Origin: an uncultured Burkholderiales bacterium
GTDB taxonomy: Bacteria > Pseudomonadota > Gammaproteobacteria > Burkholderiales > Thiobacillaceae
Direction of reading: 5' to 3'
Assembly (NCBI GenBank): GCA_937949525.1
Contig: CALEDT010000029.1
Span: 62,001-126,000, forward strand
DNA length: 64,000 nt
Below the pieces are notes generated by a model. It did not search any database. It was not told the origin of the DNA and was given only the letters and a program-made list of their open reading frames with translations. This document shows, one piece after another, positions 55,024-62,485 of this stretch (the first letter of the stretch is position 1; each line of letters begins with the position of its first letter). Both the position numbers and the translations under genes were made by a program.

Positions 55024-55060
55024 GACGACTCCTGGCGATGTGGTGGACGACGATACTCTA

Positions 55061-55110
55061 GTGAAATGATCAAGTTTTCACAATGCAGTATTTGTTTCAC
55101 AATGTGAAAC
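55061..55110. promoter_or_regulatory. IclR operator between the operon and its regulator
   Basis: A perfect 17-bp palindrome GTTTCACAATGTGAAAC (55094-55110) ends at the base before the iclR ATG. The same core recurs 19 bp upstream as TTTCACAATG (55076-55085). A further GTGAAA at 55061-55066 pairs with TTTCAC at 55076-55081. So three or four half-sites fill the 87 bp divergent region. This is the expected layout for repression of both the operon and the regulator by the IclR protein. Confidence 0.75.
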
Positions 55111-61692: not shown

Positions 61693-61713
61693 GTCTGCCT
61701 GCGGGGAGGGAGG

Positions 61714-61790
61714 TGGTGGTGATGGGCGGAATCGAACCGCCGACCTACGGGTTATGAATCCGTCGCTCTAACCGTCTGAGCTACATCACC
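61714..61790 (-). tRNA. tRNA-Met (CAT), elongator type
   Basis: A 77-nt tRNA on the minus strand including the encoded CCA (61714-61716). The acceptor GGTGATG pairs with CATCACC; the D-arm has AGCTCAGACGGTTAGAGC, and the T-arm GGCGGTTCGATTCCGCC. The anticodon loop reads TTCATAA, so anticodon CAT. No initiator features (the first base pair is normal G-C), so this is elongator Met; a lysidine-modified Ile2 is less likely. Located just upstream of miaB on the same strand. Confidence 0.9.
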
Positions 61791-61921
61791 GGGGCCGAAA
61801 GAGCCGGCGATTATCCGCGCGCGGAGCGGCCCTGTCAATGCGGCGGTGGGGCGAGACCGCGAGGCCATCCGCATCACCCCCCATACCGGATATACATAGA
61901 AAATTTTTATCCATGCAGCAC

Positions 61922-62011
61922 TTGAATTAATCCGAGTAAAACACTATGGTATTGCCCAAGGCGCATCGACAAGCGCCTTTGTCTGGCCCAACAACATCAG
62001 CATTTGCTGAT
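61922..62011 (+). promoter_or_regulatory. promoter and structured leader of the SOR-like gene
   Basis: A -35 TTGAAT (61922-61927) and -10 TATGGT (61945-61950), exactly 17 bp apart. Downstream in the leader lies a 7-bp hairpin AAGGCGC/GCGCCTT (61958-61964 with 61973-61979, loop 8) and a perfect palindrome ATCAGCATTTGCTGAT (61996-62011). The AT content is well above the rest of the window. A strong Shine-Dalgarno AAAGGAGAG follows. These suggest a highly expressed, regulated gene. Confidence 0.5.
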
Positions 62012-62029
62012 TTTCTAAAGGAGAGTGTG

Positions 62030-62485
62030 ATGTCTGCCCTGATCAATGGCTTCAACAGCGACGGTGTGGTGACCATCAACCGCGTGATCCTGCGTCCCGA
62101 GTACAGCACGGACGATCTGGAGATGCGTGTGGCCGAGCTGTGCGAGAACGTCAAGACCTACCACTCGGACACCGGTTTCGTCGGCGGTTTCGTGGCGATG
62201 AATTCCGGCCTGGTGTCGAACGAGGGCTCCACCGTCGGTCAGGCCGTGGACAGCCCGATGAAAGGCCGAGAAGCGCTGATCGTCACGTTCTGGCAGTCGT
62301 TCGAGGATCACGAGAAAAGCCACCGTTCCGAGACCTTCCAGCCGCTGTTCCAGCGCGTGCTGGAATTGTGCGAGAACGGCAACGAGGAGGTGGCCTACAA
62401 CATGCTCTGGTCGGGCAAGGCCTACAGCGCCGAGGAGGCGCGCGAGGCACGCGCCGCGAAAGAGCGTTACCTCAAGGCAGCCTGA
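62030..62485 (+). CDS. dimeric alpha/beta-barrel protein with sulfur-oxygenase-reductase-like His and Cys residues
   Basis: A 151 aa soluble protein of the antibiotic-biosynthesis-monooxygenase-like fold, not assigned to a described function. The best resemblance I recall is to sulfur oxygenase reductase: Cys38, GFVG at 49-52, TFWQSFEDHEKSH with His94 and His98 (H-x3-H) and LF at 106-107, with Glu119/120 and Cys114. In SOR the iron ligands are His86, His90 and Glu114 and the key cysteines Cys31, Cys101, Cys104, so spacing is close. SOR has about 310 aa; this is half that. Strong SD, own promoter. Alternative: a generic ABM-domain protein. Confidence 0.7.
   Translation: MSALINGFNSDGVVTINRVILRPEYSTDDLEMRVAELCENVKTYHSDTGFVGGFVAMNSGLVSNEGSTVGQAVDSPMKGREALIVTFWQSFEDHEKSHRSETFQPLFQRVLELCENGNEEVAYNMLWSGKAYSAEEAREARAAKERYLKAA

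Follow-up and report, generated by a model that had tools for sequence, protein, structure and literature searches.

Sulfur oxygenase reductase (SOR) depends for its activity on a two-domain chain that is built into a hollow shell of 24 subunits. A second point of reference is the IscR regulon of Pseudomonas: the type-1 consensus, ATASYYGACTRWWWYAGTCRRSTAT, is in print, and the passages on individual Pseudomonas sites give them 68% and 76% identity to it (PMC3899308). Among the titles and abstract openings retrieved from the open PMC literature, we found no half-size SOR homologue. One published table reports that Alvin_1688, called an antibiotic biosynthesis monooxygenase, was lowered together with dsr genes, while iscR was raised in the same table (PMC11267869); Alvin_1688 may or may not be a member of the family described here. 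This family is represented by a 151-aa protein, which we refer to as half-SOR, encoded in the window, that is, the whole 64-kb stretch of DNA that was analysed.

Results

The gene and its surroundings

A preliminary description of this DNA had reported an ORF of 151 aa with Cys38, His94, His98, Glu119 and Glu120, and a spacing of 56 residues from the cysteine to the first histidine followed by H-x3-H; the translation bears out every one of these points (Table 1). The ribosome-binding signal is a family trait, since an ATG with GGAG within the preceding 20 nt was found in 84 of 88 distinct family genes, and AGGAG in 77. The gene is single-copy in the window's genome and solitary: upstream, on the opposite strand, lie tRNA-Met (61714-61790) and a MiaB-like gene, and an efflux-adaptor-like gene converges on it from the downstream side, MiaB-like and efflux-adaptor-like being our own reading of the ORFs with no family search behind the names. 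An Rfam search over 61700-62100 gave the tRNA itself and otherwise nothing beyond tRNA-like matches or matches at chance level. The tRNA-Met gene is faced by a near-perfect sigma-70 promoter (TTGACA-N17-GATAAT, 11/12; window 61838-61810, minus strand).

Table 1. Features of the half-SOR locus, in window coordinates
Feature	Position	Strand	Remarks
Promoter-like TTGAAT-N17-TATGGT	61922..61950	+	8/12 to the sigma-70 consensus; block conserved among 11 aligned relatives
IscR type-1-like operator TAATCCGAGTAAAACACTATGGTAT	61928..61952	.	18/25 to the published consensus; overlaps spacer and -10 box
Leader hairpin AAGGCGC-N8-GCGCCTT	61958..61979	+	7-bp stem; equalled by 2% of shuffles
Shine-Dalgarno AGGAG	62019..62023	+	From sequence; GGAG retained in the family
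Half-SOR gene	62030..62485	+	ATG start at 62030; 151 aa plus stop; translation, relatives, ABM fold model
Cys38 codon	62141..62143	+	Invariant in 51/51 family rows; in register with SOR Cys
His94 and His98 codons	62309..62323	+	Invariant in 51/51; in register with the SOR His pair
Cys114 codon	62369..62371	+	Cys in 48/51 rows; near SOR cysteines (mixed alignment)
Glu120 codon	62387..62389	+	Invariant in 51/51; in register with SOR Glu

Conserved operon partners were considered for the family and rejected, synteny being found at the level of lineages only. The most widespread neighbour cluster occurs at 24 of 80 loci, many of whose flanks end at contig ends. Several neighbours are kept in Thiobacillus-type loci, the nearest of which is an upstream gene, adjacent in 19 loci, for a 120-aa protein that we read as S24-peptidase-like and that has no apparent DNA-binding domain (for instance L059, 7429-7826; L072, 3500-3897).

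In several Thiobacillaceae genomes the 3′-terminal part of half-SOR, comprising roughly codons 114-151, recurs downstream in tandem copies together with the hairpin that follows it (L018, 8335-8883; L007, 8338-8523 and 8665-8850; L090, 1838-2129). The repeats have 67-100% DNA identity in these three loci and also occur in genomes G035 and G036; they may represent an attachment site or an element that restores the 3′ end.

Sequence and fold compared with SOR

No Pfam or NCBIfam model matches the half-SOR protein above its cut-off. The NCBIfam SulOxRed model (NF047630) was matched at E = 8.8e-5 with 21.7 bits against a curated cut-off of 400, over positions 5-109 of the 308 in the SOR profile, and the Pfam SOR model (PF07682) at E = 0.0014 with a score of 18 against a curated cut-off of 25, over the N-terminal third of SOR. 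Half-SOR is accordingly below both curated family cut-offs, and at 151 aa it is missing the C-terminal domain of the two-domain SOR chain (~300 aa). SOR was the best match in three sequence libraries; in two PDB sequence searches it came first, if weakly (E 0.014 and 0.002), the second of which had unrelated proteins close behind it, such as triosephosphate isomerase at 0.045. Comparison by hhalign with canonical SOR gave a probability of 30% (E 5.6e-4) over residues 44-117 only, and comparison with divergent SORs gave 70% (E 3.9e-5), with E119/E120 placed on the SOR Glu pair. At E < 1, an HMM of the SOR N-terminal domain matched 50 of 51 family rows, all 80 of the 80 family ORFs and 2 of 5000 shuffles, and none of the other ORFs at those family loci; no family row was matched at E < 1e-3, the best being 0.0017. 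In the reverse search, seven of nine SOR proteins (E 5.5e-4 to 0.48) outranked all 2000 shuffles, and the other two fell among them.

The residues of the SOR site were followed in a mixed alignment of 16 sequences, in which the SOR-type proteins were taken from ten genomes of the same class, none of them over the cut-off. The Cys, His, His and Glu of SOR are in register with C38, H94, H98 and E120 of half-SOR, the glutamate in question being E120 and not E119, and N17, C38, F50, G60, T86, W88, H94, E95, H98 and E120 are common to all sixteen sequences, family members and SOR-type proteins alike. We take C38, H94, H98 and E120 to be the counterparts of SOR Cys31, the persulfide cysteine, and of the iron ligands His86, His90 and Glu114. 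Since these four residues are also invariant in all 51 aligned family rows, phage copies included, they are not a chance pick. The resemblance to SOR proposed in the preliminary description thus appears to reflect genuine, if distant, homology with the N-terminal domain, the four catalytic positions being kept, but half-SOR is not SOR proper, as its scores and the missing domain make clear. Judged from these alignments, the homology is consistent but remote, and we regard homology together with a matching site as very likely.

The preliminary description had also named an outcome that would count against SOR, namely profile hits only to generic ABM proteins, and this did not occur: the best profile matches are to SOR, and PF03992 (ABM) was not among the matches at E up to 10 for half-SOR, in a search whose filters drop most matches above about 0.1. 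The window's whole genome likewise had no PF03992 match at E <= 0.001. Generic ABM monooxygenase was therefore rejected as a label for the family, PF03992 being absent from the matches, although the fold is common to both.

AlphaFold2 gave a model with pLDDT 91.6 and pTM 0.81 when 18 phage copies were added to the alignment, and with pLDDT 85.4 on the family alignment without them. In the model, helix 27-45 carries C38, helix 91-99 carries H94 and H98, and strand 119-124 carries E120, and there is an extra C-terminal helix at 134-150. Foldseek matched the model to 9lsd at E 3.8e-7, and the VIA fold search aligned 97 residues with SnoaB (3kg0) at Z 14.3 and rmsd 1.5, so that the predicted fold is that of the ABM proteins (ferredoxin-like alpha+beta). 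A viral fold search (BFVD) gave weak matches only. The fold searches place generic ABM proteins ahead of SOR, which appears at Z 11.3 and rmsd 2.2-3.1 with 123-128 residues aligned, the longest among the best 50 rows; these rows cover the C-terminal half of SOR (chain ranges from 125 to 308), not its iron-holding N-terminal half. Because the SOR alignments fall on the C-terminal half and ABM proteins come first, the placement with SOR rests on sequence. ABM oxygenases and cyclases as the top fold matches, together with the weak SOR sequence scores, are what would be expected if half-SOR were an ordinary ABM-fold enzyme acting on an unrelated substrate (a cofactor-free oxygenase, a cyclase or an enzyme of the haem-degrading type) that had come by its SOR-like His and Cys through convergence. 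This explanation is made very improbable by the unlisted PF03992 match, by SOR being the best match in the three sequence libraries, and by the whole set of residues, from N17 to E120, that is common to the alignment with SOR.

Distribution of the family

A scan of genome contigs confirmed 364 relatives, the best 80 of which are 75-95% identical. Their names are often those of sulfur oxidisers (Thiobacillus, Thioalkalivibrio, Sedimenticola, Halochromatium, Sulfuritalea), others being named merely Proteobacteria or after groups such as Gallionellaceae and Rhodocyclaceae. A member was present in 23 of 61 near genomes, and there is a second subfamily of ~130 aa that is some 35-42% identical. Family matches were found in 74 of 369 genomes of a class-wide draw and in 9 of 398 genomes of a phylum-wide draw, five of the nine lying outside the class; no match was found in plasmids. 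The family is strongly conserved.

Within the class-wide draw, dsrA was found in 119 of the 369 genomes (112 over the cut-off and 7 fragments below it), and soxB, counted as present at E <= 1e-100, in 150 (148 over the cut-off). The 74 family genomes include 65 with dsrA, 67 with soxB and 73 with at least one of the two, compared to 91 of the 295 others (Fisher p ~1e-29, with kinship ignored). Four of the 74 match half-SOR by a short piece (G127, G191, G256 and G278), and 69 of the 70 that are left without them carry dsrA and/or soxB. The sole family genome without strong dsrA or soxB, G396, shows a soxB-type match at E = 1.1e-31, its assembly being 75% complete. The window's genome carries both genes. 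These findings indicate that half-SOR occurs mainly in bacteria with sulfur-oxidation genes.

The dsrA match of the window's genome (G000:C17:14508-15761) has 500 bits, below most dsrA matches of the class draw (about 560-657), and may be of another dsr type. Near-full-length SOR matches were found in 10 of the 369 class-draw genomes, none over the cut-off, compared to the 74 with half-SOR. At four loci (L175-L178) a divergent near-full-length SOR-like family scores 166-180 bits to NF047630 (cut-off 400) with its catalytic residues kept; the genomes concerned (G075, G103, G186 and G191) all match half-SOR too, G191 by its short piece only.

The region upstream of the gene

The preliminary description had credited the gene with its own promoter, a structured leader and strong expression signals; the promoter and the leader stand in part. 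The promoter-like sequence reaches 8/12 and lies within a conserved block, but it is below the 9 that the promoter scanner demands and was not listed by it; the pattern at 8/12 or better is found in 48 of 88 upstream regions, a count that has no control. The leader hairpin has counterparts in relatives, where the arms have changed yet still pair, but folding of the entire leader is hardly more stable than that of shuffled sequences (z = -0.96). A stem of at least 6 bp just past the -10 box was found in 9 of 14 sequences, the window included, and 5 of these beat 95% of shuffles; in the per-sequence test, L086, L083, L087 and L022 (6 bp) remain above 5%, and the stems of L088, L097, L108, L055 and L076 were no better than chance. 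RNAalifold run on the MAFFT alignment of the leaders returned no consensus structure and no pairs, owing to the hairpin arms being out of register in the alignment. What was taken for expression signals is more plausibly an IscR-type operator that overlaps the promoter, and expression of the gene may be strong.

An alignment of the upstream regions of 11 relatives contains a palindrome-like block, conserved across the promoter, that resembles the IscR type-1 consensus. When 83 distinct family genes were scanned over their 160 nt of upstream sequence, 58 regions scored at least 19/25, 50 at least 20 and 37 at least 21, the regions being related among themselves and not independent, compared to frequencies of 0.0036, 0.0012 and 0, respectively, in dinucleotide shuffles. 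The iscR gene served as positive control: of 40 genomes with an iscR match, 30 loci were fetched, and every one of them scored 20-24. The remaining 25 of the 83 family loci are under 19/25; in 4 of them a site lies farther out, about 270 nt upstream, which leaves 21 loci without a site, the window included, of which 14 score 16 or less. Beyond the 200 nt upstream of the genes, the DNA of 80 loci (L001-L080) contains 22 sites scoring at least 20 in 1,043,492 positions. Ten of the 22 immediately precede the S24-like gene located upstream of half-SOR in Thiobacillus-type loci, and five are about 270 nt upstream of half-SOR in Sulfuritalea-type loci, ahead of a 65-aa ORF.

Two small genes share this setting. 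The S24-peptidase-like gene has an IscR type-1-like site of its own (20-21/25) in 10 of the 19 loci, and the 65-aa ORF, which is 85-100% identical among five loci (L013-L016 and L020), lies between a site scoring 21-22/25 and half-SOR.

At the window's own gene the operator score amounts to 72%, which, given the published Pseudomonas sites at 68% and 76%, is no disqualification; the same score is reached by 2.4% of pooled shuffles. At the same place, the operator scores 20-22 in L082, L083, L085, L088 and L095 and 18-19 in L086 and L087. Elsewhere in the window one place scores 20 and another 18, and the iscR of the window's genome has a site of its own that scores 21. The genus-level operator pattern was found nowhere else in the window's genome, iscR included, and another Rrf2-type regulator is possible at the window gene. 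The higher of the two other places in the window, at 55053-55077 (20/25), is a better match than that of half-SOR itself.

These data suggest that the half-SOR gene is probably an IscR target. Control by IscR appears likely for the family, whereas for the window gene we put it at about even odds, since elsewhere in the window two places equal or exceed its score. Repression by [2Fe-2S]-IscR would be expected by analogy with the published literature.

Copies in viral contigs

A scan of viral contigs found 28 that carry a half-SOR relative, 34-42% identical; the contigs are not independent, L144 and L163, for example, giving identical matches. All 18 viral rows in the alignment (A7) retain the four key residues. 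Around half-SOR, the phage genes include those for primase, NrdA, NrdB and a RuvC-like resolvase in L150, a tail tube and a gp59-like gene in L155, gp32 in L159 and a tail-fibre-like gene in L144, and no clear phage hallmark was found in the neighbourhood of L141. For two phage proteins tested, the closest relatives belong to Pelagibacter myophages. Searches by tblastn of 50,697 GenBank phage records did not find half-SOR, and two phage copies (L150 and L143) had no match in PHROGs at E <= 1e-4.

In seven of the 28 contigs, half-SOR is preceded, at a distance of 121 to 748 nt, by a dsrC/tusE-like gene, the product of which has only the final cysteine, and a single final cysteine is taken as TusE-like in the relevant passage of PMC8190135. 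A second DsrC-like gene in L165 is weaker (36%), lacks the final cysteine and is located at a distance of 3.4 kb. An IscU-like NifU_N gene adjoins half-SOR in four of the 28 contigs, as seen with Pfam for two and with tblastn for all four. The TusE-type single cysteine and the Pelagibacter phage relatives point to a phage link with sulfur transfer, not with sulfur oxidation as such.

The NifU_N neighbours, like the IscR-type operator, would fit a non-catalytic iron chaperone or persulfide carrier for ISC, in which Fe or S would be passed on to IscU by the 2-His-1-Glu site or by Cys38. For a general chaperone, however, the near-restriction to genomes with sulfur-oxidation genes would be unexpected, and conservation of the whole SOR-type site suggests chemistry, so that we consider this role unlikely. 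Another possibility is a minimal sulfur oxygenase, a homodimer that oxidises sulfur with O2 for energy or detoxification and whose control by IscR is secondary to its iron content. The complete set of SOR catalytic residues and the presence of dsrA and/or soxB in 73 of 74 family genomes are consistent with such an enzyme, yet the partner domain is missing from a type of protein that depends on its two-domain, 24-subunit organisation, no neighbour gene is common to more than 24 of the 80 loci, and 11 of the 28 viral contigs combine half-SOR with sulfur-transfer or IscU-like genes. A minimal sulfur oxygenase thus seems improbable as the role of the family, and true sulfur oxygenase activity of half-SOR is doubtful.

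Discussion

The SOR-type site, the distribution among sulfur oxidisers, the IscR-type operator and the phage neighbourhoods together point to the handling of sulfane sulfur, tied to Fe-S homeostasis. We propose, with a probability of roughly one half, that half-SOR would be a non-haem-iron, cysteine-persulfide protein for sulfane sulfur that is linked to Fe-S cluster homeostasis in sulfur oxidisers. According to this proposal, half-SOR would be a half-size, single-domain relative of SOR, two copies of which may pair as ABM proteins do, the homodimer rebuilding what a single two-domain SOR chain has. Each chain would hold one mononuclear iron, with His94, His98 and Glu120 as ligands, and Cys38 would take up sulfane sulfur as a persulfide beside the iron; binding of iron as such appears reasonably probable from the predicted site. 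The gene would be repressed by [2Fe-2S]-IscR through the type-1-like operator, and loss of the cluster through iron shortage, oxidants or reactive sulfur would release it from repression. The task of the protein would then most likely be the processing of sulfane sulfur, whether by oxygenation, disproportionation or hand-over, which could support the building or protection of Fe-S clusters in cells where Fe-S enzymes carry large sulfur fluxes.

A more far-reaching version is rather unlikely when taken as a whole. It would have a dedicated, IscR-controlled, mononuclear-iron half-SOR homodimer convert persulfide or polysulfide and thereby keep Fe-S clusters supplied or protected in sulfur-oxidising Proteobacteria; marine T4-like phages would carry a version beside sulfur-transfer and Fe-S scaffold genes, and SOR itself would have arisen by duplication of a half-size ancestor, with the second site lost.

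Half-SOR makes it possible to test for a connection of sulfur oxidation with Fe-S cluster homeostasis, two processes that both use sulfane sulfur but are mostly investigated separately. The protein may represent the minimal equipment for SOR-type chemistry, and it is a possible single-domain ancestor of SOR. It is also a further candidate auxiliary metabolic gene of marine phages, outside the gene list in the abstract of PMC8190135.

The sulfur auxiliary genes of phages in that list (dsrA, dsrC/tusE, soxC, soxD and soxYZ; PMC8190135) likewise represent phage-borne sulfur metabolism, whereas half-SOR is missing from it, and the main text of the article has no word beginning with "oxygenase". 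With the ABM or dimeric alpha-beta barrel proteins (SnoaB, 3kg0; FasU, 9lsd; IsdG/IsdI), half-SOR has in common its predicted fold and domain size, and it differs from them in having no listed PF03992 match, in the added C-terminal helix and in the invariant Cys/His/His/Glu. With SOR (PF07682, NF047630; PDB 2cb2, 6qpa and 6m35), it shares N-terminal homology, the Cys/His-x3-His/Glu residues in register and an ABM-type fold, in contrast to which stand its half length without a C-terminal domain, scores below the cut-offs, an IscR-type operator and a wider distribution. Finally, the type-1-like operator overlapping the promoter is as in the IscR regulon, which in Pseudomonas includes the isc operon (PMC3899308) as well as fprB and nfuA, while the target would here be an SOR-like protein and not a known Fe-S assembly factor.
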